In this document: in pieces, positions 20,970 through 36,460 of the stretch
Numbering within the stretch: the first letter of the stretch is position 1
Layout of the letters: each line of letters starts with the position of its first letter
From: Actinomycetes bacterium
GTDB lineage: Bacteria > Actinomycetota > Acidimicrobiia > Acidimicrobiales > SZUA-35
NCBI GenBank assembly: GCA_024280015.1
Contig: JAJRQY010000092.1
Coordinates: 1-41,484 of the forward strand
Reading direction: 5' to 3'
DNA length: 41,484 bases
Translations under genes and position numbers: made by a program
Notes under the pieces: model-generated
The model's input: the letters and a program-made list of their open reading frames with translations, nothing else
The model's database searches: none
Told to the model about the DNA's origin: nothing

Positions 20970-23198
20970 ATGCGCGCGACAAGATTGGGGCGAGTCCGCT
21001 CGCTCATTCTCGCACTGACTTTGATGAGTGTCACGATTGTGGCATCACCAGGGGCAGCCGAAGCTCAAGACGAACCAGAGGCTCCCGTAGCCTTTGCTGT
21101 CAATGAAGATGTAGGCCGGATCGAACGCGCCTATCTCACGATCCTCGGGCGTGCTCCCGAAGCTGGTGGCCTCAACTATTGGCTTGAGCAGCAGGGCCAG
21201 GGTGTCAGCTATGACGCCATTGTCGAAGCGTTCCTAGCCTCACCAGAACGTGCCGCTCGCTTTGGGCCAAATCAAAGTGTCGGAGACTTCCTTGACCAGT
21301 TGTATCAGGACGCTTTCGGACGAGCCGCTGATCCGGCCGGAAAGCAGTACTGGACGGACCAGCTGGCCGCTGGCGCCACTCGGCGCTCGATCGTTCTGAA
21401 CTTCGCTGACTCGGTTGAGCAGCGTCGTCGTACCGAGCCGAGCGAGGAGTTCACTCTGAATGTCCTGCACATCAACGATCATCACTCCCACCTCAAACAA
21501 GACAAGGCAGACCTGAAGTTCGATGGGGTCAAGACCCGGGTAAAGCTTGGTGGTTTCCCCAGCTTGGTCACCAAGTTCAAAGAGCTTGAAACCGAGCTTG
21601 CGGGCCAAAACGTGGTCAAGCTGCATGCGGGCGATGCCATCTCCGGCACCCTGTTCTACAGCCTTTTCGAGGGTGAAGCCGATGCGGCCCTGATGAATGA
21701 GGTCTGCTTTGACTACTTCGCCCCCGGCAACCACGAATTCGACAACGGTGACGTTGGTCTGAAGCTATTCCTGGACTTCCTGGCCCAAGGGGACTGTGGA
21801 ACGCCTTCACTGGCGGCCAACGTCATCCCCGAGCTTGGCACGCCACTGAACCCAGTCATTGGTTCGCCATACCTTCGCCCCTACAGTGTCGCTCCCTACG
21901 GAGATGGCCAGTACGTCGGCTATATCGGTCTCGACATCGCCGACAAGACCAAGAACTCCTCCAGTCCGCTGGAGTCAACCCAGTTCTTGGACGAGGTTGC
22001 GACTGCACAGCGCTACGCCGATGCCCTGACCGGCGCCGGTGTGGACAAGATCGTACTGATCACTCACTACCAGTACGCCAGTGACCTCAAGCTTGCTTCC
22101 ATGGTCAGCAATGTCGACCTCATCATTGGTGGAGACAGCCACACCTTGCTTGGTGACTTCGACTCGGTCGGATTCAACTCATCTGGCCCGTACCCAACAA
22201 TGACCACCGACCGCAATGGCGTTCCGGTTTGTGTTGCTCAGGCCTGGCAGTACTCAGCCATCGTCGGCCAGCTCAAAGTGAGCTTCGATGAGTTCGGCCA
22301 CATTGCCGATTGTGGTGGTACTCCTCACATGATCCTTGGAGATTCCTTCCAACAGAAGGACTCCGAAGGCAATCGTCAAGAAATCACTGGAACCACTCGT
22401 GATGCGGTTTTGACGGCGATAGCTGCGAATCCGAACCTGTCAATCGTGACCCCCGATCCTGCAGCTCAAGCCATCTTGGATGTCTTTGATGAGCAGGTCG
22501 CAGAGCTCGAGCAGGTTGTCATCGCCAACGTGACTGAGGATCTGTGTCTGGAACGCATCCCGAATCAGGGTCGATCCTCCATCACCGGTTGTCAGGCACT
22601 AACCGCTCAACATGGTGGTGATATCCAGATGCTGGTTGCTGAGGCATTCCGTACTCGGAGCTTTGAATCAGACATTGCCATCCAGAATGCTGGTGGTGTT
22701 CGTATTGATGTTCCTGTTGGTCCATTCACCATTGCTGATGCCTACACCGTGCTTCCATTCGCCAATACCTTGGTGAACCTGGATCTGTCTGGTGCTGAGC
22801 TCAAGTCGGTTATCGAGGAAGGAACCGAGAACGCCATCCGCGAGGGTGGATCAACCGGGGCCTATCCCTACGCCGCTGGCTTGCGCTGGGACATGGACAT
22901 GACCGCAGCCAACGGCAGTCGAGTCAGCAACCTGGAGTACCAGGCCAAGGGCACGACGGCTTGGGTTGCTTTGGATCCGGCTGCTACCTACAAGGTCGTG
23001 ACCAACTCCTTCGCCGCTAGCGGTGGTGACGGTAACGACACCTTTAAGGCAGCATCTGATGCTGGTCGGGCCGTGGATACCAACCTGAACTACGCACAGA
23101 CGTTCATTGACTATGTGCAAGACGACTTAGGCGGATCAATTTCGAAGCTGCCAGTCGACTACTACTCGACTCAGGGCTTCGTGCCACTACCCGGCTAG
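20970..23198 (+). CDS. Secreted DUF4214 / 5'-nucleotidase fusion
   Basis: A 742-residue exported protein. A signal peptide (1-32, ending A-E-A-Q) is followed by a DUF4214 domain (about 45-150, ILGRAPEAGGLNYWLEQQ and FGRAADPAGKQYWTDQL). A UshA-type 5'-nucleotidase follows. Its metallophosphatase motifs are V-L-H-I-N-D-H-H-S-H, G-D-A-I-S-G, A-P-G-N-H-E-F-D-N-G, L-I-T-H-Y and G-G-D-S-H-T. The C-terminal substrate domain has I-Q-N-A-G-G-V-R and D-A-Y-T-V-L-P-F-A-N-T-L. It should hydrolyse nucleotides outside the cell to recover phosphate and nucleosides. DUF4214 may tether it to the surface. A UUCG-loop terminator follows. Confidence 0.93.
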   Translation: MRATRLGRVRSLILALTLMSVTIVASPGAAEAQDEPEAPVAFAVNEDVGRIERAYLTILGRAPEAGGLNYWLEQQGQGVSYDAIVEAFLASPERAARFGPNQSVGDFLDQLYQDAFGRAADPAGKQYWTDQLAAGATRRSIVLNFADSVEQRRRTEPSEEFTLNVLHINDHHSHLKQDKADLKFDGVKTRVKLGGFPSLVTKFKELETELAGQNVVKLHAGDAISGTLFYSLFEGEADAALMNEVCFDYFAPGNHEFDNGDVGLKLFLDFLAQGDCGTPSLAANVIPELGTPLNPVIGSPYLRPYSVAPYGDGQYVGYIGLDIADKTKNSSSPLESTQFLDEVATAQRYADALTGAGVDKIVLITHYQYASDLKLASMVSNVDLIIGGDSHTLLGDFDSVGFNSSGPYPTMTTDRNGVPVCVAQAWQYSAIVGQLKVSFDEFGHIADCGGTPHMILGDSFQQKDSEGNRQEITGTTRDAVLTAIAANPNLSIVTPDPAAQAILDVFDEQVAELEQVVIANVTEDLCLERIPNQGRSSITGCQALTAQHGGDIQMLVAEAFRTRSFESDIAIQNAGGVRIDVPVGPFTIADAYTVLPFANTLVNLDLSGAELKSVIEEGTENAIREGGSTGAYPYAAGLRWDMDMTAANGSRVSNLEYQAKGTTAWVALDPAATYKVVTNSFAASGGDGNDTFKAASDAGRAVDTNLNYAQTFIDYVQDDLGGSISKLPVDYYSTQGFVPLPG

Positions 23199-23257
23199 TA
23201 GAAAACCGCAAGAGGTCTGACCGGGCTGGACCCGGTTGGATCAAGATTGTGAAGCCG

Positions 23258-23285
23258 CTTGGCGGGGCCTTCGGGTCCCGCCAAG
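23258..23285 (+). terminator. UUCG tetraloop terminator
   Basis: CTTGGCGGGGCC (23258-23269) pairs with GGTCCCGCCAAG (23274-23285), a 12-bp stem with one wobble and the very stable TTCG loop. It lies between the ends of convergent genes and may act in both directions. A smaller stem ACCGGG/CCCGGT lies at 23220-23236. Confidence 0.88.
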
Positions 23286-23357
23286 TCGCGTCCAGCAGGC
23301 CGGTACTTGCCCAGTTGGTTGCGCCGCGCCGGGCTGAAGGAATCGCGACCAGCAGAT

Positions 23358-24251
23358 CTAGATATTGGGCCAGCGTTTCGTACCCGGTGATTTGCGCTTC
23401 TGGCCTGGCTTGGGACCCAAGGCCCAGCGTCGCCGCCATGCTCCAGCCTGAGGGCCACTGAGGTCGGGTGTCTTCTCTGCATGAGCCTTCTTTTTGGCCT
23501 CCCACCAGCCCGAAGAGAACTCATCGGCCAGTTCTTCTACTCGTCGCTCCACCCGCTTGGAAAAGACTCGGACATCCTCACCCTCGGCAAGTCGCATCGG
23601 TGAGCCGAAGGCGACGGCGCAGCGAGAGCGTCGCGGCCATGACTTTCCCTTGGGTAAGAGATTGCCGGTCCCTTCGATATAGATGGGAACGATTGGGACT
23701 CCGGCCAGCTTGGCAACAAAGGCTGCACCTGGGCGATGCTCCTGGCTCCATCCGTCTGGACTCCGACCCCCCTCGGGGAAGATCAAGAGGCTGTTGCCAG
23801 CCTCGATGGTTTCCACCGTATTGGTGATGGACAGTTTCGAAAGTCGTAACCGTTCAATGGGGACCGCCCCGATAAAGAGGGCAGAGACGGTGGCCATGAA
23901 CTTGTTGGTAAAGAAATAGTCCGCTCCCGCAGCCACCGAAAGGTCTCGACGTAGGTGGCCGGGCAAGGTTGTCAGCAGCAAGGTGGTATCGGCGTGGCTG
24001 TGATGATTGGCCACAAAGACGACGGGTCCCTTGACCGACTTCAGTCGATCAATCCCGATAACTCTGGGTGAGCCGTACAACTTCATGGCCGGCTTCATGA
24101 AGCCCCAGATGCCGGCGCGGCGGACCAGCTTGGCCACTGGTTGACGTGACCACTTGGTGTCGTAGTAGACCCCGACCTTGGAAGGGGGTACGCGTTTCTC
24201 GATTCCCTTCGGGGTAGATGGAGGGTCGACCAGGAAGCGCAGCCAGCTCAC
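23358..24251 (-). CDS. PlsC-like acyltransferase
   Basis: A 297-residue 1-acylglycerol-3-phosphate acyltransferase-type enzyme. Motif I is N-H-H-S-H-A-D-T (NHxSxxD variant of NHX4D), motif II is GAVPIERLRLS, motif III is L-L-I-F-P-E-G-G-R-S and motif IV is GVPIVPIYIEGTG. The first 60 residues and the Lys/Arg-rich C-terminal tail (about 255-297) are unlike plain PlsC. Its GTG start overlaps the stop of the LarA-like gene (GTGA), making it the last gene of a three-gene coupled operon. It may acylate a lysophospholipid or another alcohol made by the operon. Confidence 0.9.
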   Translation of the reverse strand: MSWLRFLVDPPSTPKGIEKRVPPSKVGVYYDTKWSRQPVAKLVRRAGIWGFMKPAMKLYGSPRVIGIDRLKSVKGPVVFVANHHSHADTTLLLTTLPGHLRRDLSVAAGADYFFTNKFMATVSALFIGAVPIERLRLSKLSITNTVETIEAGNSLLIFPEGGRSPDGWSQEHRPGAAFVAKLAGVPIVPIYIEGTGNLLPKGKSWPRRSRCAVAFGSPMRLAEGEDVRVFSKRVERRVEELADEFSSGWWEAKKKAHAEKTPDLSGPQAGAWRRRWALGPKPGQKRKSPGTKRWPNI

Positions 24252-25864
24252 GAGACGTCGGCCATGAGAACGGGCGGGTTGTGGAAGTGAGAGATTGTTG
24301 GTTGAGGACCAACAGTGTCTTCGGCCATCTCCAACGCATCCTGCAGGGTTGAGGCCGGTTTGAACCCGAGCCGTCGGACGGCTTTTGGGTCACCGCCAAC
24401 CACGATGACCGATCCGAGATACTCCAGTGCGTGTGAGCACCAGTACCACATGTAGAACGGGTGGACTCCGTGATACGCATTACTGGTCCGGTACAGGTGT
24501 CGATACCACTCGTCCTCGGCAAACTTCTTCTCGTACTTCTTGTGCATGACGACCGGGTCCCTGGTCTCGGTCAGCACCTGTTCGAAGAAGTCGATATAGC
24601 TCGGATGGTGTACCGGGTTGAACTCCCACGGAGTTGGGTGGCTCATGATGAGCACACCACCCTCCTTGACTACGGGCTTGCCTCGATACAAGTTGAAGAA
24701 GTATCCGAGGCCCAACACCGCAACCAGGACAGGGTTGAGCACCGCGTTCACGTTGTAGGGACTGAGGTAGGGGAGCCCCATGGTCATGATGTCGGTCTGA
24801 CCTTCGACCGGCACCATGTGTTGGGCGTAGACGTGTTCGATGGTCTTGTTGTGGACGGCATCAACTTCGCCTGCTTGGACCGATGTCATCTCATAGGGAG
24901 ACTTCCATGAGTGGAATATCTTCCGCTTCTGGGCCCCCGTCATGCGACTGAGACCAGCTTGCATCGTGGCGAACTTCGCCCGATCCTGGAAGTTCCATTC
25001 CCACTCACGCTTTTGCAGCATGGACAGAGGCCCGGTGTGGCCATAGGTGTTGGTGTTGACCGTGGTCTCGATTTGGAAGACCCGAGGGCCGTGTCTCTTG
25101 ATGATCTCGCCTTGACGCCAGTTTGACGCATGGAAGGCCGAGGTGTCCTTGTCCATGATGGACTTGGACTGGGTCAGGGTCTTTGGATTGTGATGAGACC
25201 TGACCCCGGCATAACCAGACAAGCCGGTTGCGGTACTTTTCCAACCGCCATTCATGCTGGTCAGATTGATGTTCACATAGATGAGCAGGTCACTCTCGGC
25301 TGCTCGGCGCTGCATCTGGACGGTGTCGCCCTGGTCGGACTCGCCGAGGATGACCATCTGCTCGGGATCCTCAGCATCGAGGTTGTAGAGCTGACCATGG
25401 GGGGCAAAGGCTTCATAGACCCGATCGCCGACTGCCTGCCGGAGTTCGGCTTCGGTCATTCGTCGGTGCAGAGCAAGGGCAGCGACCAGGTGGACATCGT
25501 CAACACCAGCAGCGGCGGCCATGTCGAGAACCGCTTCGATCACTCGTTGGCGCAGGTCAGGCTTGACCATGGCGGGAAGGGGCAAGGAAACATCGTCGAA
25601 GGCAATAGTGAGCTTCATTCCCGGTGTGAGCAGGGCCGGCAATGGATCGTCGTCCATTGGATTCAGGAGAGCATCAATGATGGCACCATCTGGATCCTTG
25701 ATGCCGTGAATTGGCTCGCCAGGGTAGATCACGCGGCTGCGACCAACCGGCAGCTTCTCCATCCGGAAACCCTCACCGTGATGGAACAAGATTGATGGTG
25801 TCTGGCGATCGACTTCCAGGACAAACCCAGGACGAGGGTTCGGTCGTGGTTTGGACTTAGACAT
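24248..25864 (-). CDS. LarA-like (DUF2088) protein
   Basis: A 538-residue protein related to the nickel-pincer lactate racemase LarA. The N-terminal domain shows I-A-F-D-D-V-S-L-P-L-P, comparable to the LarA DHTRP segment, and A-L-A-L-H-R-R-M-T-E-A-E-L, which would keep the catalytic His of LarA's THR-type motif. A segment G-G-W-K-S-T-A-T-G-L aligns with the cofactor-binding Lys (GGxKS). The LarA His just before it appears replaced by Asn (V-N-I-N-L). The protein is about 110 residues longer than LarA, with an extended C-terminal half rich in Trp, Tyr and His. The substrate is unknown; a sugar or lipid hydroxy acid is as likely as lactate. It is coupled to both neighbours. Confidence 0.82.
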   Translation of the reverse strand: MSKSKPRPNPRPGFVLEVDRQTPSILFHHGEGFRMEKLPVGRSRVIYPGEPIHGIKDPDGAIIDALLNPMDDDPLPALLTPGMKLTIAFDDVSLPLPAMVKPDLRQRVIEAVLDMAAAAGVDDVHLVAALALHRRMTEAELRQAVGDRVYEAFAPHGQLYNLDAEDPEQMVILGESDQGDTVQMQRRAAESDLLIYVNINLTSMNGGWKSTATGLSGYAGVRSHHNPKTLTQSKSIMDKDTSAFHASNWRQGEIIKRHGPRVFQIETTVNTNTYGHTGPLSMLQKREWEWNFQDRAKFATMQAGLSRMTGAQKRKIFHSWKSPYEMTSVQAGEVDAVHNKTIEHVYAQHMVPVEGQTDIMTMGLPYLSPYNVNAVLNPVLVAVLGLGYFFNLYRGKPVVKEGGVLIMSHPTPWEFNPVHHPSYIDFFEQVLTETRDPVVMHKKYEKKFAEDEWYRHLYRTSNAYHGVHPFYMWYWCSHALEYLGSVIVVGGDPKAVRRLGFKPASTLQDALEMAEDTVGPQPTISHFHNPPVLMADVS

Positions 25865-28221
25865 TATCGACGACTCTTTCGCAGGGATGGCAGGGGGCCA
25901 AGGGGGAGGATGCGTTCGCCGCTTCCATCTGACTTTGACCAGTACTCAACCAGCCAGCCCCGTTTGAGTGCGAGGGAAGCAAGGCGGGTTTCCGGGTTTA
26001 CAGCGACGGGGAATCCGACCGCATCCAGCAGCGGCAAGTCCGAGGACGAGTCGGCGTAGGCCACCGACTCAGACAGGTCGAAGTCGTTGGCGTCGGCATA
26101 GTCACGCAACGCTTGGGCTCGAACTTCTCCCGTGGGAGGAACCGACAGAAGCTCGCCGGTGTAGCGGCCATCCTTGATCGACATCTCGGCGCAAATGATG
26201 TCATCAAAGAGTGGCTTGAGCGGGTCGACCACGATATTGAGAGCACCGGTGATGAGGACGGTTCGGTGACCAAGCTCGCGATGCTTGCGTACCCGACGAA
26301 TTGCCGCCGGGAAGGCTTTGGTGAGAATGTGGTCAGCCAGCAGTTCGTGGCCAAGCTGCTCCATCTGGTCCACCGAAGCGCCGTCGTACCGCCGGTAGAA
26401 ATGGCGGAGGAAGTCGGTGCGATCTCGAGCATCCAGTGCAAGCAGAGCTGGGCCTTCCTGCAGGGTCTTGAGGGTGAACTTGATCCGATCGGCTGGCCCG
26501 AGGTTGCGCGTGGCCAACCAGGCATAGCTGAACACCACATTGCTGGCAATGATGGTGTTCTCGAGATCGAAGGCGGCCAGGTGCCGTTCTGAGGAAAGCA
26601 CACGCTTGCGCAGACGTTTCGAACGAGCATCGGGGTCTGAGGCTGTCGGCTTGGTTTTCACTCGAGCGTGTTCCACCACCGATGGGAGGTGAATGCCGGT
26701 GACATAGTGCTCCCAGTCGACAATGGCTGGATCACAAGCCATGGTGTTTTTGTCGTCTGGCTCCAGCTGGTCGTGCATGGCAACCAGGTTGTCGACACCG
26801 TAGAGAGCTTCGCACTCGGCGTAAGCGCCATAGATCTTGACGTAGGCCGCTGCACGGTCGACTTCTTCCTTCTTCTCTTCAACCTGCATGCTGAGCATGG
26901 CTTGCTTGCCCCGCAAGGGGAGCAACTTGAGGCCCCGATCAGCCCGATCCAATCCCTTTTGGGCCCAGCTCAGTTGACGTTCGACCGCGCCACGGCCGGG
27001 AAAGGTGAATTCGGCTACCGCAATGGGTTGGCCCTTCTTGTCATACAGCGGGTTCTGGGTGAACCAGCCATTGACCAATTCGACCAGGGTCCGATACTTG
27101 AGTGGATTACGGGTGCCTGAAGCGACCTGGGTGACCTTGATCGAGCCGTCCTCTGTTGGTCCGGCGGCGGCAACATTGATGATGGCGGCAACGACAATAT
27201 CGACGGGGATGACGTCGACAACACCTTCGGGGACCCCGGGGAATTCCTTGAGAAGGCCTTGGGCGTAGGAGATCAGGATCGGTTCGGCCATCCGAAAGCC
27301 CTTGATCCAACCCGGTTTTGGTTCGGCCCAAGCTGACTCGATGATTGCGGGCCGGACCAGGGAGACGGGAATATTGCCCTTCGATTCATCCAGTGCTCGT
27401 TCTCCCAGCGCCTTGGTGTACGCATAGGAGTCGGGCCAACCCAGGGATGCGGCTCGGGCCCGGCCAGCCTCGACCAGCTGCTCGCTGACCCAACGCTTCC
27501 GGTACTGCTCGGTTTTGGCTGAGATGAGAGGAGTGCCAGCGGCCCCAAGTTCGTTTCCGGCCCTTTTGCGAAATTCTTCCAAGCGGCCAGATGAACGGCT
27601 TTGGGCATCAAAGTCGGTGCGACAACGGCGGGCGAATTCGACTTCGGCTCGCCAGGAGATGTCGATATCGAAGGGGGAGTCAGACAAGAGTTGTTCCGCC
27701 GCGTGTCCGCGACGGTTGCCGGCGACATAGCAGGTGCTGATGGCGACCATGTGTGGCGCAACATCAAGGTTCTGTAGTGCCTCGGCAACTCGGGTCGGAC
27801 CGAGCAGGTTGACCTCGATTGCGCCGTCAAGGGGGGCATCAAAACTTACTGTTGCTGCCGAGTGGATCACGATGTCACAGGAGGCAAAGATGGAAGCGTC
27901 GGCTTCATCGAGCCCCAGGCCATCGGTGCTGACGTCGCCAGAGACAATGGTAACTCGACGCTCGATCTCGGCCCAGAACGAGTCGGCCTTGCGTGGGGTT
28001 TCGCCTCGCTCCTCGATGTTTCGGTGGAATACGTCGTTGCGGAAGATCTCCCGGCGGGCTCGTTCGGCCGGGGTTGAGCGCTTGCCTGGTCGCACAAGAA
28101 GGACGAGCTCGCAGTCGGGAACCTGGCGGATCAGTCGTTCAATGAGCGCAGTACCAAGAAAGCCGGTGCCACCGGTGATGGCGATGCGCTTTCCTGCAAG
28201 TTGTTCAGCGATTGTGACCAT
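25864..28221 (-). CDS. Acyl reductase (SDR/FAR)-HAD phosphatase fusion
   Basis: A 785-residue two-domain enzyme. Start ATG 28221 has GGGAAA upstream; the longer frame runs into the TetR gene. Residues about 1-400 are a NAD_binding_4 / fatty acyl reductase-type domain: I-T-G-G-T-G-F-L-G binds NADPH and S-Y-A-Y-T-K-A-L-G-E holds the YxxxK pair. Residues about 550-785 are a HAD-IB hydrolase: A-F-D-L-E-N-T-I-I (DxExT, where most HADs have DxDxT), L-I-T-G-A and A-D-S-S-S-D-L-P-L. It probably reduces an acyl thioester and acts on a phosphate ester in one pathway. The stop shares one base with the next start (TAATG). Confidence 0.9.
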   Translation of the reverse strand: MVTIAEQLAGKRIAITGGTGFLGTALIERLIRQVPDCELVLLVRPGKRSTPAERARREIFRNDVFHRNIEERGETPRKADSFWAEIERRVTIVSGDVSTDGLGLDEADASIFASCDIVIHSAATVSFDAPLDGAIEVNLLGPTRVAEALQNLDVAPHMVAISTCYVAGNRRGHAAEQLLSDSPFDIDISWRAEVEFARRCRTDFDAQSRSSGRLEEFRKRAGNELGAAGTPLISAKTEQYRKRWVSEQLVEAGRARAASLGWPDSYAYTKALGERALDESKGNIPVSLVRPAIIESAWAEPKPGWIKGFRMAEPILISYAQGLLKEFPGVPEGVVDVIPVDIVVAAIINVAAAGPTEDGSIKVTQVASGTRNPLKYRTLVELVNGWFTQNPLYDKKGQPIAVAEFTFPGRGAVERQLSWAQKGLDRADRGLKLLPLRGKQAMLSMQVEEKKEEVDRAAAYVKIYGAYAECEALYGVDNLVAMHDQLEPDDKNTMACDPAIVDWEHYVTGIHLPSVVEHARVKTKPTASDPDARSKRLRKRVLSSERHLAAFDLENTIIASNVVFSYAWLATRNLGPADRIKFTLKTLQEGPALLALDARDRTDFLRHFYRRYDGASVDQMEQLGHELLADHILTKAFPAAIRRVRKHRELGHRTVLITGALNIVVDPLKPLFDDIICAEMSIKDGRYTGELLSVPPTGEVRAQALRDYADANDFDLSESVAYADSSSDLPLLDAVGFPVAVNPETRLASLALKRGWLVEYWSKSDGSGERILPLGPLPSLRKSRR

Positions 28222-28238
28222 AGATTTCCCGAGTCGTC

Positions 28239-28250
28239 TACCATTTGGTA
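28239..28250 (+). promoter_or_regulatory. Palindrome between TetR and the lipid operon
   Basis: TACCA (28239-28243) and TGGTA (28246-28250) form a 5-bp inverted repeat with a 2-nt spacer, in a divergent gap of only 30 bp. TACCAT also fits a TANNNT -10 box ending seven bases before the TetR GTG, so that mRNA may be leaderless. This is a likely autoregulatory operator. Confidence 0.55.
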
Positions 28251-28251
28251 A

Positions 28252-28863
28252 GTGAACACCAAGCATAGGCTGATTGAGGCCGCATCCGCAGCATTCGTCG
28301 CTCGAGGAGTGGCCGGAACTTCTCTGGATGAAATTGCGCGCTCCACTGGTGTCACCAAGCAGACGATCCTCTATCACTTCAAGTCCAAGAATGGGCTACT
28401 GGAAGCTGTTCTGACAGAGGCAGCGGAGACGTTGAAGACTGAACTCGATCAAGCCGTTGCTCAAGTCGCTCCAGGATGGGAACAGGTCGAGGCTGTTGTC
28501 CGATCGGCCTTTGCTCTGGGTGTACGTCGACCGGAACTACTCGGCTTGCTGGGCGAAGTGTCCCGGCTCGGTCCGCCCCAGTCTGAACTGGTTCTGGCCG
28601 TCTTGCAGTCCACCATTGATCGGGCCATCGTTGCCTTGCAAGAGGGAATGGATGCCGGGGACTACCGCCAAAGTGATCCGCGGCTGGTTCTGTTGTCCAG
28701 CTACTCCGCCGTTACTGGTGTCGTCACCGATACCGCCGCGCTCCGGGGGGTTGGCCTCGAACTCGATCTGCGGGTTGCGGTCAAGTTACGCCAGTCCTTG
28801 CTGGACTTCCTTTGTGCCGCATTACTGGAGCGTAGACCGAGCACAGAACTGGACGGCGTCTAG
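28252..28863 (+). CDS. TetR-family regulator
   Basis: A 203-residue repressor-type protein. The N-terminal helix-turn-helix is typical: RLIEAASAAFVARGVAGTSL, then D-E-I-A-R-S-T-G-V-T-K-Q-T-I-L-Y-H-F-K-S-K. The C-terminal ligand domain is all-helical. It is transcribed divergently from the acyl reductase operon with a palindrome between, so it most likely controls that operon and itself in response to an acyl or lipid-like ligand. GTG start; no ribosome site fits in the short gap, consistent with leaderless translation. Confidence 0.92.
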   Translation: MNTKHRLIEAASAAFVARGVAGTSLDEIARSTGVTKQTILYHFKSKNGLLEAVLTEAAETLKTELDQAVAQVAPGWEQVEAVVRSAFALGVRRPELLGLLGEVSRLGPPQSELVLAVLQSTIDRAIVALQEGMDAGDYRQSDPRLVLLSSYSAVTGVVTDTAALRGVGLELDLRVAVKLRQSLLDFLCAALLERRPSTELDGV

Positions 28864-28881
28864 TACTCCGTCTGCAATCCG

Positions 28882-29220
28882 CTAGTCGTTAAAGACGTAG
28901 CCCGTGTTCTTGGCCAACAAGATGAGTTCTGTCATCGCCTTTGGTTGGCTGGCGAGTCGGGTGAGGTGGTTGGCCAATGTGGTCAGCGCGGCGCGGTCGG
29001 GGGAGTAAGCGTAGAAGCCTTGGCCATCGGGGTCGTATTGAATGTTGCCTTCAAGACTCGGTACTTCACCCTGCACCAGGATCTCAGCCACGCCTCGCCA
29101 GAAGTAGCCGCTTGGGTTGTGCTTAGCTTCACGAATGATCGGGATGGTGTCGGCCTCAATCACCTCAAATCCGAGTGCCCACTTCCCATCAGTTGAGCTA
29201 TGGATTGTCAGTGCTTGCAT
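28882..29220 (-). CDS. Orphan Imm51-like immunity protein
   Basis: A 112-residue protein from the ATG at 29220 (a longer frame to 29523 runs opposite the next gene and is not expected to be coding). It has H-N-P-S-G-Y-F-W-R-G-V-A-E-I-L-V, then Y-D-P-D-G-Q-G-F-Y-A-Y and A-A-L-T-T-L-A-N-H-L. This pattern is that of the Imm51 family of polymorphic-toxin immunity proteins. No toxin gene is adjacent. It may protect against a neighbour's toxin or be a relic of a toxin locus. The assignment is from remembered family pattern, not a search. Confidence 0.7.
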   Translation of the reverse strand: MQALTIHSSTDGKWALGFEVIEADTIPIIREAKHNPSGYFWRGVAEILVQGEVPSLEGNIQYDPDGQGFYAYSPDRAALTTLANHLTRLASQPKAMTELILLAKNTGYVFND

Positions 29221-29291
29221 GAATGGTGGCCTCACCTGGTAGTCAGGCCGGTTAGTCTCGCGTATCCGCCGGTGAGCTGTCACCAATCGTT

Positions 29292-29333
29292 GTGGAATGT
29301 TTCGTCGAGGAATGTTGGCAGTGGAATGCTTCG
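29292..29333 (+). repeat. Three short direct repeats upstream of TGA gene
   Basis: GTGGAATGTTTCG (29292-29304), GAGGAATGTTGGC (29307-29319) and GTGGAATGCTTCG (29321-29333) are imperfect direct repeats spaced 14-15 bp apart. They lie 26 bases before the start of the candidate selenoprotein. They may be regulator binding sites. Confidence 0.5.
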
Positions 29334-29358
29334 AGCCAGACAAGGGTTGAGAATCGTT

Positions 29359-29667
29359 ATGGAATTTGAGATTACCGAAGAGGCAATGGTCGCCATCCGA
29401 GCCAAGGGTGGTACGGCGGCGATCGATTTCATCACTCCCATCAATTGAGGCGGCGTTTCTGAGGTGTCGGTCGACACCTACCTCAAGGGCAAGAAGACCG
29501 CTGGCTATCGGCGGATGGAACAAGACGATGTGATGGTGCTCCTGGCCCCCTCACTCATGAAGTACGCAGACCGGGTCGAATTGGTCACCCGAAAGAAGCT
29601 GCTCTTTGGCCACAAGCTGGTCGCAATCGCCTATCAAGACGGAGCAAGCTGCCAGATTGGCGGCTAA
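29359..29667 (+). CDS. Candidate selenoprotein with in-frame TGA (CC/Se or HesB-like)
   Basis: One frame runs from ATG 29359 to TAA 29667 and is broken only by TGA at 29446-29448, codon 30. Read through, it gives 102 residues: M-E-F-E-I-T-E-E-A-M-V-A-I-R-A-K-G-G-T-A-A-I-D-F, four residues, Sec30 after N29, then G-G-V-S-E-V-S-V-D-T-Y-L-K. The second half has no ribosome site of its own. The N-terminal KGG and I-D-F pattern resembles the small CC/Se-motif and HesB-like (seleno)proteins, from memory. A Cys at 98 could partner Sec30. A hairpin starts 14 bases after the TGA. The alternative is a pseudogene with one nonsense mutation. Selenocysteine reading is an inference. Confidence 0.7.
29463..29478 (+). 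promoter_or_regulatory. Putative bacterial SECIS hairpin
   Basis: GGTGTC (29463-29468) and GACACC (29473-29478) form a perfect 6-bp stem with loop GGTC. The loop begins 20 bases after the TGA and starts with G. Known bacterial SECIS elements need a loop about 16-37 bases after UGA with a G in its first two positions, so this fits. Confidence 0.6.
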
Positions 29668-29687
29668 CGAGAACCCGCCCCCACCAG

Positions 29688-29739
29688 CGACTTGGCACCG
29701 CTAGCGATCCATATACGACATCTGGCCGGTGCCAAGTCG
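29688..29739. terminator. Bidirectional hairpin between convergent genes
   Basis: CGACTTGGCACCG (29688-29700) and CGGTGCCAAGTCG (29727-29739) form a perfect 13-bp inverted repeat with a 26-nt spacer. It lies between the end of the candidate selenoprotein and the end of ddl on the other strand, and probably ends both transcripts. Confidence 0.75.
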
Positions 29740-29742
29740 TAG

Positions 29743-30843
29743 TTAGTGGGTGGTGAGACGTTTCTTGACGCGTCGGGCATGTCGTTCGAGGGCCAGTTGC
29801 ACCAGCTTGTCGATGAGATCTGGATAGGCCAGGCCCGAAGCCTCCCAGAGTTTTGGGTACATCGAGATTGGCGTGAAGCCCGGAATCGTGTTGAGTTCGT
29901 TGAGCAATGCTCCTCGACCTGGCTTGCCGTCGCTATCGACCTCATAAAGGAAGTCGGCCCGAGCCATTCCTTCAACTCGTAGTGCCCGGTAGGCCAGTTT
30001 CGCTAGATCTTGAAGCTCATGCACCGTTCCCTCTGGTAGGTCAGACAGATCCGCGGGAATCTGCTGCCCGGCACCATCGTCGTACTTGTCCTCATAGTCA
30101 TAGAAATCGGCAGCTGGCATGATCTCACCCGGCAGGGAGACCTCCAGATCATGGTTGCCAAGCACCGCCAGCTCAATCTCGCGTCCGGCAATTCCCTCTT
30201 CAACGACCAGCCACTCGTCATAGCGCAAGGCAAGTTCGATCGCTGTTTCGAGCTCAGCGAGGTTGTTGGCTTTGCTAACCCCGATTGAGGAACCCATATT
30301 GGCTGGCTTCACGAAGCACGGGAAACCAAGCTCATCGGCTATCGCCTGGAGGTCCCCTGACCAATCCGGTTCGTGGATGGTTAACCACCGAGCCTGAGGA
30401 ATGCCAGCACTGGCCAAAACCTCCTTTGCCTTTGCCTTCTCCATGGTGAGAGCCGAACCAAGAACGCCAGCCCCGACATAGGGAACACCGGCCAGCTCCA
30501 GCATTCCCTGCACGGTGCCATCCTCACCCATTGGGCCGTGCAGGAGCGGGAGAACCACGACCTGCTGTCCAGGCTCAGGTGAAGTCACCGCCGGCAATAA
30601 GTCGGTGTGAGGGCCTGATGGATCCAGCTGTGGAGGAAGTGACCGGGTTGAGTCAGCCAGAATTGCTGCAGCTTCATTGGCCTGAACCCAATCTCCGTCG
30701 CGAGTAATGCCGATGGGGATGAGGTCATACCTGGACCGGTCAGCGGCGGCCAGAACATGGGTGGCCGTGGTGCAGGAAACGTCGTGTTCGGCAGACTGAC
30801 CACCAAAGATCACGATGAGGCGTATGCGTTGATTCGAAGTCAC
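29743..30843 (-). CDS. ddl: D-alanine-D-alanine ligase
   Basis: Ddl joins two D-Ala with ATP for the peptidoglycan stem peptide. The start is taken as GTG 30843 (366 residues), because the N-terminal F-G-G-Q-S-A-E-H-D-V-S motif follows 14 residues later; the longer frame to 30897 overlaps the divergent murF. ATP-grasp motifs are V-K-P-A-N-M-G-S-S-I-G-V, V-V-E-E-G-I-A-G-R-E-I-E and N-E-L-N-T-I-P-G-F-T. MurF, on the other strand, uses the product, so the pair shares a small 48-bp divergent control region. Confidence 0.95.
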   Translation of the reverse strand: MTSNQRIRLIVIFGGQSAEHDVSCTTATHVLAAADRSRYDLIPIGITRDGDWVQANEAAAILADSTRSLPPQLDPSGPHTDLLPAVTSPEPGQQVVVLPLLHGPMGEDGTVQGMLELAGVPYVGAGVLGSALTMEKAKAKEVLASAGIPQARWLTIHEPDWSGDLQAIADELGFPCFVKPANMGSSIGVSKANNLAELETAIELALRYDEWLVVEEGIAGREIELAVLGNHDLEVSLPGEIMPAADFYDYEDKYDDGAGQQIPADLSDLPEGTVHELQDLAKLAYRALRVEGMARADFLYEVDSDGKPGRGALLNELNTIPGFTPISMYPKLWEASGLAYPDLIDKLVQLALERHARRVKKRLTTH

Positions 30844-30891
30844 GGCGACACAGTAGACCCCAAGCGTCGCCAAGTCGGCTACACCTGTGTC

Positions 30892-32373
30892 GTGCATTTC
30901 ACCACAAGCGATATCGCGGACATTGTCGAAGGGGAGCTGATTGGTCCTGACCAGGTGATTGCTTCGGTCTCTATTGATAGTCGGTCCATCGATGCTGTTG
31001 TGCCTTTTGACCGACCGAGGAAAGCTGGTGCCGAGGAGAAGGTCAAGGGTTCCACAGGCCAGGCCGGGACACTATTTGTCCCCGTTGTCGCCGAACGTGA
31101 TGGCCATGACTTCATTCGCTCTGCCTTGGACAATGGAGCCGTCGCCTACCTCAGTTCACAAGAATCACCGTCGCCAGAGTCACAGTCATCAGGCTTGCGA
31201 CGCCCAGACGATGTGGCCACGATCCGGGTGGCTGACACGATGGCTGCTCTTGGGGCACTTGGAGCCGAAGCCCGGAATCGGTTGCCGGATCCGGTGATTG
31301 GTGTAACTGGAAGCGTCGGTAAGACGTCGGTGAAAGATCTCATTGCCGCGGCTTGCTCGGTTGCGGTTCCGACCCATGCCAACAAGGCTTCGTTCAACAA
31401 CGAGCTTGGTCTTCCTCTCACCCTGGTCAACGCTCCCGAGCAAACCCAGGTAACGGTTCTGGAAATGGGGGCGCGGGGCAGCGGCCATATTGCTGAGCTT
31501 TGTGCCATTGGCCGCCCAACCATCGGCGTGGTGACCCGTGTCGTTGCCGCCCACACCGAACTCTTTGGAACGTTGGACGGTGTCGCCGCAGCCAAGGGCG
31601 AGCTCATTGAAGCTTTGCCTTCGGACGGGACGGCAATCTTGAATGCCAACGACCCACTGGTCTTGGCCATGGCCAAGCGTTCGTCTTGCCGGGTTGTGAC
31701 CTATGGAGTCGAGTCGACGGCAGAGCAACTGGCATCAGGAACAGTCGCTGATTTTCTGGCAACCGATAGCAAGTTGGATGAACAGATTCGAGCCAGCTTT
31801 GTCTTGCAATCACCATTCGGGACGCACTCGGTCCAATTGCAAGTTGCTGGCGAGCACATGGTGGCCAACGCGACCGCCGCCATTGCCGCCGCTGTGTCTG
31901 CGGGAATCGATCTCGAGGCTGCAATCGCTGGCATCGAAGGAGCAACCATCTCTGGCCTACGAATGGAAGTCTTGAGGTCTGCAACCGGTCTTGTTCTGAT
32001 CAATGATGCCTACAACGCCAACCCAACCTCCATGCGGGCGGCGCTGAAAGGCCTTCAAGCTTTACCAGTCGAGCGTCGAATCGCGGTCTTGGGAGTCATG
32101 GCTGAGCTAGGAGAAGGGGGCGACGACGAACACAACCGAATCGCACAAGAATGCGCGGAGTCCGGTGTCCGAGTCATTGCCGTTGACGCAGCGGCCTATG
32201 GCGACAATGCCGAGCATGTCAGCGATGTTGCTGGTGTCGAAGCTGTTCTTGAAGACTTGCTTGGATCAGGTCCTTCGGAGACCGGGATTCTGGTGAAGGG
32301 CAGTCGCGTAGCTGAGCTTGAACGAGTTGCTCGCTGGCTCCAGCAGAGCCAGTTCTTTGCGGAGCTGTCGTGA
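30892..32373 (+). CDS. murF: UDP-MurNAc-tripeptide-D-Ala-D-Ala ligase MurF
   Basis: MurF adds D-Ala-D-Ala to UDP-MurNAc-tripeptide in the cytoplasm. The GTG at 30892 gives 493 residues and starts H-F-T-T-S-D-I-A-D, a normal Mur ligase N-terminus; the upstream frame would overlap ddl. Motifs are S-I-D-S-R-S-I for substrate binding, G-V-T-G-S-V-G-K-T-S with Lys144 for ATP, N-N-E-L-G-L-P-L, and D-A-Y-N-A-N-P-T-S-M, the MurF C-terminal signature. There is an inserted Ser/Pro-rich loop before the ATP domain (about residues 91-104). It is coupled to menA. Confidence 0.95.
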   Translation: MHFTTSDIADIVEGELIGPDQVIASVSIDSRSIDAVVPFDRPRKAGAEEKVKGSTGQAGTLFVPVVAERDGHDFIRSALDNGAVAYLSSQESPSPESQSSGLRRPDDVATIRVADTMAALGALGAEARNRLPDPVIGVTGSVGKTSVKDLIAAACSVAVPTHANKASFNNELGLPLTLVNAPEQTQVTVLEMGARGSGHIAELCAIGRPTIGVVTRVVAAHTELFGTLDGVAAAKGELIEALPSDGTAILNANDPLVLAMAKRSSCRVVTYGVESTAEQLASGTVADFLATDSKLDEQIRASFVLQSPFGTHSVQLQVAGEHMVANATAAIAAAVSAGIDLEAAIAGIEGATISGLRMEVLRSATGLVLINDAYNANPTSMRAALKGLQALPVERRIAVLGVMAELGEGGDDEHNRIAQECAESGVRVIAVDAAAYGDNAEHVSDVAGVEAVLEDLLGSGPSETGILVKGSRVAELERVARWLQQSQFFAELS

Positions 32374-33254
32374 TGAAAGAAACGGGAACGAATCGCTGGG
32401 TGCTTGGCGCCCGGCCTCGTACCCTTCCCGCTGCGGTCGTGCCCGTCGCCGTCGGATCGGCTTGCGCGGTTGGCGTAGCGGAATCCTTCCATTGGTGGCG
32501 TGCTATTGCGGCCCTCGTGGTTGCTGTCGCCCTTCAGGTGGCGACGAACTATGTGAATGACTATGCCGATGGCGAGCGCGGAACTGATGACGATCGGATT
32601 GGGCCCATTCGGCTGGTTGGATCCGGCTTGGCTTCAGCCAAGCAGGTCAAGGTCGCGGCTTTGGTTGCCTTTGGTGTCGCGGGAGTTGCGGGGGCAACGC
32701 TGGCCTTCGCTGTCGGGCCCGAACTGTTCATCGTTGGTGCAGCCTCGATGCTGGCGGGGTGGGCCTATACCGGTGGTCCAAAACCCTATGGCTACCTTGG
32801 CCTTGGTGAACTCTTTGTTTTTGTCTTCTTCGGAGTGGTTGCCACGGTCGGGTCTGGGTATGTGCAGACGGGATCAGTCACCTCACTGATGGTCATTGCT
32901 TCAGTTCCCGTTGGACTCTTGTCGGTTGCTTTGTTGGTGATCAACAACCTGCGGGACATCCCCGGTGATACCCAATCTGGCAAGCGGACCTTGGCGGTGA
33001 CCTTGGGTGATGGCAAAACTCGTTGGCTGTACCTCGGATTGTTTGGCCTAGTTGGGGTAACAATCATCGGATGTAGCCTTGTCCGGCCCCCGGCAATGGT
33101 GGCGATTCTGGGCTTGGGACTCGCCATTTCTCCCGTGCGAGCTGTCCTTTCTGGGTCAACAGACCGAGACCTGATACCAGTCCTTGGAGCGACGGGCAAA
33201 ACCCAACTGTTTACAGGGATCTTGCTCGCTTTCGGGCTTGCCTTAGGTGGCTAG
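32370..33254 (+). CDS. menA: 1,4-dihydroxy-2-naphthoate polyprenyltransferase MenA
   Basis: MenA attaches the polyprenyl chain to DHNA in menaquinone synthesis and is an integral membrane protein. The 294-residue product (GTG 32370, or ATG 32373) has the UbiA-type first Asp-rich motif N-Y-V-N-D-Y-A-D-G-E-R-G-T-D and the second NNLRDIPGDTQSGKRTLAV. The N-terminal A-R-P-R-T-L-P is also typical, and eight or nine hydrophobic segments can be seen. It overlaps murF, so wall and quinone genes share a transcript. Menaquinone as the quinone fits an actinomycete. Confidence 0.95.
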   Translation: MMKETGTNRWVLGARPRTLPAAVVPVAVGSACAVGVAESFHWWRAIAALVVAVALQVATNYVNDYADGERGTDDDRIGPIRLVGSGLASAKQVKVAALVAFGVAGVAGATLAFAVGPELFIVGAASMLAGWAYTGGPKPYGYLGLGELFVFVFFGVVATVGSGYVQTGSVTSLMVIASVPVGLLSVALLVINNLRDIPGDTQSGKRTLAVTLGDGKTRWLYLGLFGLVGVTIIGCSLVRPPAMVAILGLGLAISPVRAVLSGSTDRDLIPVLGATGKTQLFTGILLAFGLALGG

Positions 33255-33334
33255 ACGTTCGGTTTGGGAAGTCAAGGAGTTTGCGAAGGTGTTTCCCCGC
33301 TCAGGTTCTTGGGGTCGCGGCCGATATTCCCAGG

Positions 33335-34270
33335 GTGAACACTCGCGCCACAAGGACGGTCGCCGCGCCGTCTTCGGTTCGTAAAGCCCATCTTGGGCCT
33401 TCGCGCGTTGACAATGCCCGTCAGCAGCGAATTGCTCGCCTGATTGATGGTTACGAATCGACGATCACCTTGTCAGCGGTTACTCGTAGTGTCCTGCTGA
33501 TGTGGTTGATCCCAGCCAGCGGGATGATGTTTCTTGGAGTCCGAGCCTACGGAGTCCGGTCAGACCCAACGGCGCAAGGTTTTGCGCTAAGCAATGAATT
33601 CAGTTTGAGGCTCTTGTCAGCTATCCACGTCTCCAGTGCCCTACTGCTGGTGGTAACGGCGGCTGTTCTGCTGATGTGGACCATGCGTTCTTGGCTGAAC
33701 TTGGCCAGGATCGGCCCGAAACCAGCGATCTCGATCTGGCCAAAGCTTCGCCTGCACCTGCCAGGATTTGCCTTTGGAATGGTTGGTTTGTTGTCTCGGC
33801 CGGTATTGGGACCCGATTCGCGAATCTCTGGAGCATTGCTCGTGATTGGCCTCGTTGGAGGGTTGGCAATTGCCCCCATCCTTTTGATCGATACCTATCG
33901 GGCAATCTGGCAGCGATCAACAAGCCCCAAGTCCGGGTCAGAAGAGCTGCCAGCAAGCACGGTGATCCTCATATTTTCGCTGGCTGTGGTTGCCGCCATC
34001 GTTGTTCTCAAGAAGATTGTTGGTGGCGGGGTCATCAGCATGTCCCACGATGGGGCCTGGTTCTTAACCACCCTTCAAGGCCTAGGTATCATCTCTGCTA
34101 GCTGGACCGCGGCATCATTGGTTACCGAGATTGGCCGCCGACAAGATCTTCGCCTGGTGTACATCGTGGAATCTTCAGCCCAAGAGGCCGCCCAGTCTGG
34201 AATTGTGACTGATGCACAAATCGATTCGGAGTGGGCAGAGTCTGAGGGCATGATCGAGTTTGACCGGTAG
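33335..34270 (+). CDS. Unknown multi-pass membrane protein
   Basis: I recognise no family. From the GTG at 33335 the product is 311 residues (the frame is open from 33281). About 40 basic soluble residues lead into five or six hydrophobic segments, including SVLLMWLIPASGMMFLGV, SALLLVVTAAVLLMWTM, LLVIGLVGGLAIAPILLI and VILIFSLAVVAAIVVLKKIV. A charged C-terminal tail (about 275-311) follows. It may be cotranscribed with menA (80-bp gap from menA). No functional motif is seen. Confidence 0.72.
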   Translation: MNTRATRTVAAPSSVRKAHLGPSRVDNARQQRIARLIDGYESTITLSAVTRSVLLMWLIPASGMMFLGVRAYGVRSDPTAQGFALSNEFSLRLLSAIHVSSALLLVVTAAVLLMWTMRSWLNLARIGPKPAISIWPKLRLHLPGFAFGMVGLLSRPVLGPDSRISGALLVIGLVGGLAIAPILLIDTYRAIWQRSTSPKSGSEELPASTVILIFSLAVVAAIVVLKKIVGGGVISMSHDGAWFLTTLQGLGIISASWTAASLVTEIGRRQDLRLVYIVESSAQEAAQSGIVTDAQIDSEWAESEGMIEFDR

Positions 34271-34381
34271 TAAGACCTTGGGACGACGTAGACCTGAATC
34301 GTCGCCTTCATCTTGGTCCAGTACGATGCGTAGCTACGTCGTGCCCGAGCTGGGGCACCATTATCGCGAAGGGTTCTGGAT

Positions 34382-35083
34382 TTGGCCTCCCACTACGAAA
34401 CCCTGGATATTGCGCCAACGGCCTCCTACGACAAGATTCGGTCGGCCTATCACGATTGTGCCCGACGTTGGCACCCCGACCGATTCGTCGAGGCTGAGCC
34501 ACAGGAAGCTGAGGCCGCCGAGCTGGCCATGCGTCAAGCCAATGAAGCGTGGCGGGTTCTAGGCGATGAGGTAAGGCGTCGGGACTATGATCGGGGTTTG
34601 CGCGGCGGAGGGTCAGGTGTTGGGCATCATCAACAACAGACGTCGGGAGTCCGGGTCGATGATGGCGTAACTCGTATCGATCCCCGGCTTCTTAATCCTG
34701 AGTTTCTCGACAATCGTCGTCAACGACAGTTGGACGAGACGGCTTCGGTACATTCTCGTATCCTTCGCTTAGTGCCGCTCGTTGGCTTTGTTGGCTTGCT
34801 CATCGGGATTTTCGTTTTCTCCGCCTATGCCCGCGGAGACTCCGAACAGCTTCCGACCAGGGACACGGCACCGAACCCGCCCATCTCCATTCCGGCCAAT
34901 GCGTGCGTGCGCATCATTGAGGGACCCGAATTGATCAGTGTCCCTTGCACCGGACTCAATGATGGTCGCTTGATTGGGCAAATTGTTGGAGACGGAAGCT
35001 GTGAGGCTCTTGAAGGTGGCATCTTTACCGTACGTGAAGTGCCCCTTCCAAACGGGGTAATTGTTTGCCTCGGTAATGCCTGA
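34382..35083 (+). CDS. J-domain membrane protein with outside domain
   Basis: A 233-residue protein from a TTG start with GAAGGG upstream. Residues 1-75 are a J domain: HYETLDIAPTASYDKIRSAY, with the H-P-D triad at 31-33 that stimulates DnaK ATPase. A Gly-rich linker follows, then one transmembrane helix at about 122-142 (L-V-P-L-V-G-F-V-G-L-L-I-G-I-F-V-F-S). The final 65 residues face outward and have four Cys (N-A-C-V-R, S-V-P-C, G-S-C-E, V-I-V-C-L) and resemble the septum-formation/lipoprotein-like C-V-P-C domain. The chaperone domain would face the cytoplasm. The role is unknown. Confidence 0.85.
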   Translation: MASHYETLDIAPTASYDKIRSAYHDCARRWHPDRFVEAEPQEAEAAELAMRQANEAWRVLGDEVRRRDYDRGLRGGGSGVGHHQQQTSGVRVDDGVTRIDPRLLNPEFLDNRRQRQLDETASVHSRILRLVPLVGFVGLLIGIFVFSAYARGDSEQLPTRDTAPNPPISIPANACVRIIEGPELISVPCTGLNDGRLIGQIVGDGSCEALEGGIFTVREVPLPNGVIVCLGNA

Positions 35084-35086
35084 GCA

Positions 35087-36112
35087 CTACGAGCCGCAAC
35101 CGCCGCTCAGCACTCTTCTGGCACCAACCTGGTTGTTGATGAATTCCCAAACCGTGGTGCCTGCACCCTCGAAGCTCTGGTCGTTGATGATGATTTCTAG
35201 TTGACCATCACCGTTCAGGTCAGCAAAGGCCGAGACATCGAATGTGCGGACATCGGGGCTCTCACCATCCTTCAGGCTGGCACCATCGGCCTTGGTGAAA
35301 ATACTGTGCGACAAGAAGTACGTCTTCGCTACTTCATCGACGACTCGACGCAGTAAAACAACTGAGACCGCCGGGTAGGTAATCGACTCTTGCCCCGGCT
35401 GAAGACCCTGGCTCTTTGCACTCAGAACCACCTCGACGACACCGTCACCTTCTAGGTCGAGCTTGAACCACTGGGTGATTTCCAGCGGACCAACATCGAC
35501 GAGGCGTTCGGCAAAGAACTCTCGTACCGCATCAAAGTAGAAGGGGGTAGGGCTTCCAGCAATTGCAGGGCTGTAAGGCTGCACATCCCAAGCGGCTTGC
35601 ACCGCGATTGGATTGGCGCCACCCCACTCCGATGGGATTTCTGGACTGGTGAGGATGCCAATTGCTCCAGAATCGCAGACGAGACCAACCGATTCCATCG
35701 TTGTGTTCACCTGGCCGCCGTCCAGTTGAATGATGGAGAAGGTGTCACCGACGCTGGCTGGACCGGTGAAGTCGTCTGGCTGACCAAAGGTCGTCCAGTC
35801 CGTTCCATCCCATCCCCCGAGCGTGGCGAAGCGGGTGGCAACGATACTGGGAGAAGAACTGGGTGTCGGAGAGTCTGAAGGAGTCGGGACCTCTTCAATG
35901 CTCGAGCCACTGCCGGTCGCACCGGACCCCTCGCTTTCGGCGTCAGCCTGGTTGGGGTTTGCGGTTGTGGTCTGGCCAGAGGACGGGGCGGTGTCTTGCC
36001 CATCGTTGCTGCAGGCCCCAGTCGCGAGTGTTGCCAAAACAACGCAAAGCAATATGGTCACTCGAAGGCGAATTGATCTGCTTGAGAAAGGGTTAGGTAG
36101 CGGCCAGTACAT
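35087..36112 (-). CDS. Secreted lipoprotein with VCBS/FG-GAP-like calcium motif
   Basis: A 341-residue exported protein (ATG 36112; a GTG at 36121 is also in frame). An N-terminal helix V-T-I-L-L-C-V-V-L-A-T-L precedes the lipobox A-T-G-A-C, so it should be a lipid-anchored surface protein. A Ser/Thr/Pro-rich linker covers about 35-90. The rest is beta-rich, with D-L-E-G-D-G-V-V-E-V-V and D-L-N-G-D-G-Q-L-E-I-I, FG-GAP/VCBS-type calcium loops. The stop lies only 3 bases after that of the convergent DnaJ-like gene. Function unknown. Confidence 0.83.
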   Translation of the reverse strand: MYWPLPNPFSSRSIRLRVTILLCVVLATLATGACSNDGQDTAPSSGQTTTANPNQADAESEGSGATGSGSSIEEVPTPSDSPTPSSSPSIVATRFATLGGWDGTDWTTFGQPDDFTGPASVGDTFSIIQLDGGQVNTTMESVGLVCDSGAIGILTSPEIPSEWGGANPIAVQAAWDVQPYSPAIAGSPTPFYFDAVREFFAERLVDVGPLEITQWFKLDLEGDGVVEVVLSAKSQGLQPGQESITYPAVSVVLLRRVVDEVAKTYFLSHSIFTKADGASLKDGESPDVRTFDVSAFADLNGDGQLEIIINDQSFEGAGTTVWEFINNQVGARRVLSGGCGS

Positions 36113-36176
36113 TTGCACCACACTGCCAGATCTGAGGTGCTTGCCGGTGGCATCGCCGCTATCGTCACCCTCTCTC

Positions 36177-36250
36177 GGACCATTAGCTCAGCTGGCTAGA
36201 GCGCTCGCTTCACACGCGAGAGGTCACAAGTTCAAGTCTTGTATGGTCCA
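36177..36250 (+). tRNA. tRNA-Val (anticodon CAC)
   Basis: The 74-nt cloverleaf has acceptor GGACCAT (36177-36183) with ATGGTCC (36243-36249) and discriminator A36250. The anticodon stem CTCGC/GCGAG encloses TTCACAC, so the anticodon is CAC (Val). The T-arm ACAAG-TTCAAGT-CTTGT is intact. No CCA is encoded; it must be added later. Its 3' end is an insertion site for the integrative element that follows. Confidence 0.95.
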
Positions 36251-36265
36251 CGTCTCTCACCAGGG
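36213..36265 (+). repeat. Attachment-site copy in tRNA-Val 3' end
   Basis: The 3' half of tRNA-Val and about 15 bases beyond it (36213-36265) align without gaps with 36732-36784. My hand count gives about 42 matches in 53. This is a duplicated attachment-type sequence. The functional crossover core is not determined. Confidence 0.65.
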
Positions 36266-36316
36266 ATTATGTAAATCCGGCCGCCCGGAAAACCCTCAAA
36301 AAGGCCCCAAAAGTGG

Positions 36317-36460
36317 CTACTGGTGCCCTAAGTGGTGCCTTCCCGAATCAAAAACTTGTTTCGGAACGAGCAAAATAGTTTCCTCGGACGGCCGCTGATG
36401 AGTCTCCTCAGTCATCCTCACAGAGACACCAACATGATCAATCAGCCGCCAGTTCTCGGA
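36317..36460 (-). pseudogene. Remnant of an earlier tyrosine integrase
   Basis: The minus frame ends N-W-R-L-I-D-H-V-G-V-S-V-R-M-T-E-E-T-H and then V-F-D-S-G-R-H-H-L-G-H-Q. The intact integrase nearby ends N-W-Q-L-A-D-Y-A-G-T-S-V-R-M-I-E-E-T-Y and V-S-D-S-G-E-H-H-L-G-H-Q. The similarity fades in-frame above about 36460. The nucleophile Tyr is now His. It is the C-terminal relic of a related integrase lying at the same distance from its att copy. The stretch 36461-36731 holds no gene I can support. Confidence 0.75.

Follow-up and report, generated by a model that had tools for sequence, protein, structure and literature searches.

A small reading frame in an actinobacterial genome (assembly GCA_024280015.1) carries a TGA at codon 30, and the question that the locus raises is whether this codon ends a gene or is read as selenocysteine (Sec). 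The window, i.e. the whole stretch of 41,484 nucleotides that was analysed, corresponds to contig 123 in a genome of 4.8 Mb, which is divided into 175 contigs and is 96.6% complete. We consider it very probable that the frame is a genuine selenoprotein gene, that its UGA codon 30 is decoded as selenocysteine and that its product has the fold of the A-type carriers. The features of the locus are collected in Table 1.

Reading frame, neighbourhood and selenocysteine machinery

Starting from the ATG at 29359, the TGA is the sole interruption of a frame that stays open until the TAA at 29665-29667. The two same-frame halves split by a single TGA that were described in an earlier note on this DNA are exact, and read-through yields a protein of 102 residues. 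The start given there for the first half (29359-29445) is backed by homology, which begins at 29359, and by an ATG at the matching residue in 24 of the 28 TGA-bearing rows of the alignment (own gene counted); the ORF of this half, however, remains open farther upstream (29200-29448). As standard translation ends at residue 29, the gene is easily mis-annotated.

Table 1 Features of the putative selenoprotein locus (positions in the window)
Feature	Position	Strand	Basis or remark
Putative selenoprotein gene, 102 codons and TAA, TGA codon 30 read as selenocysteine	29359..29667	+	frame, homologs
TGA, predicted Sec30; Cys (TGT) aligned in the homologs of G005 and G015	29446..29448	+	alignment
Predicted bacterial SECIS apical hairpin; stem 29463-29468/29473-29478, outer pair A29462-T29479, loop 29469-29472	29462..29479	+	folding, comparison
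Conserved Cys98 codon, possible partner of Sec30	29650..29652	+	alignment
Imm51-like immunity protein gene, not in a conserved unit	28885..29220	-	neighbour, just upstream
D-Ala-D-Ala ligase gene, convergent, not in a conserved unit	29743..30897	-	neighbour

In a comparison of 40 stretches (positions 22000-38000 of the window and 39 loci, some of them representing one place twice), the only ORFs of the window that were matched at E <1e-10 were the selenoprotein gene and the ORF partly antisense to it (28885-29550). An Ogt-type methyltransferase, an Ada/AlkA protein or an IMP dehydrogenase lies near the homolog in 7 or 8 of the 40 stretches; these names were taken from one locus, L099, where the genes are on the opposite strand. 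No conserved neighbourhood with Fe-S genes was found in the 40 stretches, and we claim no operon. Upstream of the homologs, the promoter-like sequence TANNNT precedes the start by 4-9 nt in 13 of 30 loci (L030, L032-L034, L036-L042, L044 and L048), against a mean of 1.6 and a maximum of 7 with shuffled bases; it does not precede the window gene. Shine-Dalgarno-like sites were found in five of the 30 loci. These counts hint at leaderless mRNAs for the homologous genes.

The four genes whose presence the earlier note proposed to check, selA, selB, selC and selD, are all present in the genome, each over its cut-off. The tRNA-Sec scored 66.4 bits (family cut-off 47) and was given the anticodon tca by ARAGORN, selA (419.3 bits) and selB (271.1 bits) adjoin each other on contig 15, and selD scored 375.5 bits. 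When the same families were searched in 14 control genomes, tRNA-Sec exceeded the cut-off in five, selB and selD in two each and selA in one, so these families are not matched everywhere. The comparison supports the presence of the Sec machinery, and by gene content the organism is predicted to use selenocysteine. In the cell, SelA, SelB, tRNA-Sec and SelD would decode the UGA, SelB binding the hairpin 20 nt downstream and delivering the Sec-tRNA.

The selD gene has one in-frame TGA and appears to be a selenoprotein gene itself: the TGA is located in the motif GAGUGCK (L019 1501-2424; G000:C58:4240-5163), and a hairpin is predicted downstream of it, with the loop GGTCG 32 nt from the TGA.

Conservation of the TGA codon and of its hairpin

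Matches to the window protein were found in 32 of 61 genomes, namely its own and 60 relatives. Twenty-nine of them have the in-frame TGA, one (G029) is a short fragment, and the remaining two, in G005 and G015, have no stop and encode Cys at the position of codon 30. selA was over the cut-off in 29 of the 29 TGA genomes and had no match in the two Cys genomes, a pairing that rests on the 61 genomes. Of the 29 genomes that lack a match to the window protein, 14 likewise have selA over the cut-off, so Sec use does not seem to need this protein. In an order-wide search of 397 genomes, 56 matched: 53 with TGA, two with Cys (again G005 and G015) and one cut near a contig end, where matches without a fetched locus were judged by internal stops only, save G042, G062 and G338. 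One of the 53 TGA matches, in G128, has an extra stop (TGA and TAG), and the TAA in G023 is that homolog's own end. Twelve of 396 genomes matched across the phylum, eight with TGA and four without a stop; these four, G537, G557, G576 and G736, bear Cys and lie outside the order. Among 36 pattern stretches from viral contigs no relative was found.

The residue at position 30, at which the earlier note expected Cys or Sec in homologs, was read in 53 distinct rows. These came from L001, L026-L054, L069-L081, L083-L094 and L098-L123; profile misses at E 1e-3 (e.g. the CC-type L083-L088), identical proteins, the repeat fetches L055-L068 and the loci L021-L025, which hold the genes of L030, L033, L040, L039 and L048, were left out. 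Forty-six rows have TGA, six have Cys and belong to the same subfamily, and one is a remote Cys row of the CC type; among the rows read, only TGA or TGT/TGC occupies this place and no other residue was seen. A tree of 52 rows, from which the remote L092 had been dropped beforehand, draws three Sec/Cys changes, only one of which is forced by well-supported branches, and gives them no direction.

The hairpin of the window gene (GGTGTC, loop GGTC, GACACC) is inside the coding sequence, in the codons for EVSVDT. Its stem of 6-7 bp begins 14 bases after the TGA and its loop follows the TGA by 20 bases, as the earlier note had claimed; both distances were reproduced from the coordinates. The GGTC loop, which resembles the GGUC loop of E. 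coli fdhF, is present in all 46 distinct TGA rows, four of which are from outside the order, at a distance of 20 nt from the TGA in 41 and of 23 nt in five. The exact 16-base hairpin was found in 40 of the 46 TGA rows vs none of seven Cys rows. Elsewhere among the TGA rows, L080 and L109 have the outer G-C of the stem swapped to C-G, L030 has G-T in place of a stem G-C, and L033, L041 and L044 have a single G-A mismatch each. Loop, position of the G, stem and spacing also fit the limits for bacterial SECIS elements, as the earlier note had held; in the part of PMC13188914 available to us these are a loop of 3-9 nt with a G in its first two positions, a stem of 4-16 bp and 16-37 nt from TGA to loop, and such limits are likewise in the available part of PMC10778597.

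Codon usage separates the hairpin from the rest of the gene. In a tabulation of positions at which at least 20 of the 28 TGA rows (own gene included) share the residue, the degenerate codons with the least variation are the six codons 35-40: GAG in 23/23, GTG in 28/28, TCG in 25/25, GTC in 28/28, GAC in 27/28 and ACC in 28/28 rows. The Cys genes retain one codon of this run each, GAG in L049 and GTG in L051, and their other codons differ, either synonymously or by Ser for Asp at residue 39. Mean pS is 0.008 in the hairpin codons vs 0.689 in codons 1-29 and 0.656 in codons 41-100, and pN/pS amounts to 0.43 upstream of the hairpin codons and to 0.50 downstream of them, so both halves are under similar selection (raw proportions without correction for multiple hits, from 27 pairwise comparisons against the window gene). 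The Sec codon, the SECIS element and selection on both halves are all supported by comparison of homologs.

Folding of the single sequence gave an ordinary energy (z -1.07; 32 of 200 shuffles fold equally well or better), so the lone hairpin by itself proves little and the comparison of homologs decides. RNAalifold returned four pairs from 28 rows, none of them changed on both sides, and the named stem of seven pairs scored no better than shuffles in a covariation test of the 28 rows; covariation is nearly absent from this alignment because the stem hardly varies. The Rfam model SECIS_1, presumably a eukaryotic-type element, had zero matches here and likewise zero in 14 control genomes, so that its silence carries no information. 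When positions 29300-29700 were scanned permissively against Rfam, four matches appeared, all far under the gathering scores. Gly precedes the Sec TGA in 25 rows, and 24 of them use the codon GGT for it, possibly a preference for a codon context of Sec decoding.

Two other readings of the TGA were weighed against these data. If it were a true stop, the locus would consist of a 29-residue remnant and a dead downstream half, the result of pseudogene formation or of a sequencing error. The standard code gives this reading, and the ordinary fold energy of the single sequence agrees with it; we nevertheless rejected it, and give it practically no weight, because 46 distinct homologs have a TGA at this very codon, because selection on the downstream half is much like that on the first, and because two relatives without selA have Cys. 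Decoding of the TGA as some other residue, by a Trp code or a suppressor tRNA, would leave an open frame that cannot be distinguished within one genome. Across genomes, however, Cys is the sole replacement in the homologs read, the exchange tracks selA in the genomes checked and the SECIS is present. In several homologs (e.g. L027 and L029), moreover, the frame ends with a TGA beyond the conserved C-terminal residues, which suggests that TGA does serve as a stop. An alternative code was rejected on these four points, and the chance that it is correct appears negligible. 

Sequence family and predicted fold

The protein had been likened in the earlier note to the small CC/Se-motif or HesB-like proteins. 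Its first 70-90 residues fall near the CC/Se motif family, NF041239, which was matched over this part by all 30 members of alignment A2. Members of both are small and have a start of the form ITxxA...KGG...DxI, followed by a Cys or Sec and then a Gly-rich stretch. The window protein itself scored 25.9 bits, under the cut-off of 40 that was passed by two of the 30 members, L041 (40.7 bits) and L044 (40.9 bits). Sec is preceded by Gly in 25 of the 28 TGA rows and by Asn in the window protein (NUGG); G-Sec/Cys-G-G was found in 16 of the 30 A2 rows, GUGG being the typical motif. An adjacent CC (or C and Sec), which we took from the name of NF041239 and from phylum matches as a mark of that family, is absent from the window protein. 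CCGG (GCCGG) occurs in four of the five phylum matches over the cut-off, four having been read in frame, whereas GUGG is typical here. In the part of PMC13188914 available to us, NF041239 is among the predicted selenoprotein families, as a hypothetical protein predicted in Moorella thermoacetica, with the motif CxxU, in contrast to the typical GUGG of the window subfamily.

Unlike NF041239, the window subfamily has a C-terminal part with a further conserved Cys, Cys98, which is kept in 26 of the 28 TGA rows and in both Cys rows (L049 and L051). An ending of the form HHxHxxxCxH, which looks metal-binding, is present in 14 of the 30 A2 rows and absent from the window protein. The homologs L050 (G016) and L052 (G006) have instead of the Cys98 ending an Asp/Glu-rich C-terminal tail of ~40 residues.

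Known models gave few other matches. An NCBIfam search up to E 10, in which HMMER filters discard most matches above about E 0.1, returned for the window protein neither TIGR01911 nor NF038090 (IscA/HesB). TIGR01911 is HesB-like by name, and the predicted model of the window protein has the IscA/SufA fold; the Sec motifs differ, that of TIGR01911 being UxGP in the part of PMC13188914 at hand. The hypothetical protein DG, NF049953, is entered with GUxG in the portion of the table of that paper available to us, a motif that would fit GUGG; only NF041239 was matched in NCBIfam (if NF049953 is included there), and DG was judged by its motif only. PF01521 was not matched up to E 10, and the sole Pfam match of the window protein was Menin at E 0.11; Fe-S_biosyn was matched at E 0.026 by one of the 30 members and ErpA at E 0.0068 by one of the 30. 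PHROGs gave two weak matches (best E 0.074). A profile search of PDB sequences found nothing up to E 10, and a search with the single protein found two matches, at E 0.21 and 0.89. The likeness drawn in the earlier note stands in so far as all 30 members match NF041239 and the predicted model matches IscA and SufA; it fails in that the score is below the cut-off, no model of a HesB-like selenoprotein was matched and Gly or Asn replaces the first Cys of the CC.

An AlphaFold2 model built from six sequences (pLDDT 87.1, pTM 0.77) points to the A-type carriers. In a Foldseek search, in which no match reached E 0.001 or below, ranks 1-7 were chains of IscA, SufA, HI1723 and AQ_1857 (1x0g at E 9.8e-3); HI1723 and AQ_1857 are presumably A-type carriers as well. 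VIA-align placed SufA 2d2a first (rmsd 2.8 over 85 residues) with a Z of 8.5, which by the tool's own note is near the level that unrelated models can attain. IscA 1x0g (Z 7.2, rmsd 3.9, 94 residues) and DsrR (Z 6.9) also scored, and Z fell to 4.0 in row 10 and to 2.2 in row 11, a polymerase. The predicted model has the fold of these carriers at a middling Z, and such proteins fill the first ranks; the likeness in predicted fold is supported by this comparison.

A-type carriers have three ligand cysteines, in the pattern C...CGC. With IscA, SufA and ErpA (PF01521) the window protein shares fold, size, a Cys or Sec in the middle and a Cys near the C-terminus. It differs from them in the missing PF01521 match and in having only Sec30 and Cys98 in place of the three ligand cysteines, which are seen in P0002, a separate ErpA-like carrier of the same genome with CSG and a C-terminal CGCG. 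A profile comparison aligned Sec30 with the Cys of CSG in the ErpA-like carrier, weakly (E 0.07, probability 0.8%).

Possible functions of Sec30 and Cys98

The probable place of Sec30 is the loop in which carriers have the first Cys that binds the cluster. Most likely, Sec30 and Cys98 would bind a metal or Fe-S unit and hand it on, or form a selenenylsulfide redox pair, with the role in metal or cluster binding marginally the likelier of the two. In the strict form of the metal or cluster reading, an Fe-S cluster or iron would have Sec30 as its natural selenolate ligand and the protein would be a second carrier beside the ErpA-like one, Se replacing the S ligand lineage-wide; this is tentative and on the whole unlikely. 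A metal-free redox enzyme, in which thioredoxin-type partners reduce a Sec30-Cys98 selenenylsulfide and the carrier fold is a mere scaffold, is a tenable alternative, if a somewhat doubtful one. One Sec with one nearly invariant distal Cys would suit such an enzyme, as would the lack in the window protein of the CGCG ending of P0002, and most uncharacterised selenoproteins are regarded as redox proteins in the part of PMC13188914 available to us. Against it, the best matches of the model are carriers of metals or clusters, and the metal-binding-looking HHxHxxxCxH end occurs in the subfamily, though outside the window protein.

A carrier of selenium or selenide that serves SelD, with no part in Fe-S chemistry, would account for the restriction of the Sec form to genomes with selA (29/29 in the 61 genomes), as is expected of any selenoprotein. 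However, two genomes in which selA had no match retain Cys forms, and since selA is over its cut-off in 14 genomes among the 29 that lack the protein, Sec synthesis seems independent of it; we consider this function very improbable.

Our best reading is a new Sec-containing subfamily with the A-type carrier fold. It apparently forms a widespread, undescribed branch of carrier-like proteins in this actinobacterial lineage, some genes of which may already be annotated in GenBank or RefSeq. In the portion of the PMC13188914 table available to us, no family is entered that combines GUGG with this fold, and of the few papers found that pair selenoproteins or selenocysteine with Acidimicrobi- names none is, by title and abstract, about such proteins. 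Actinobacteria are counted among the phyla rich in selenoprotein families in the part of PMC1794560 at hand. The locus adds a conserved selenoprotein subfamily to a lineage for which few papers on selenoproteins were found. The cysteines of the carrier fold are ligands of Fe-S clusters, and natural counterparts with Cys exist in two close relatives in which selA had no match, so the benefit of Sec in a carrier fold would be directly testable.
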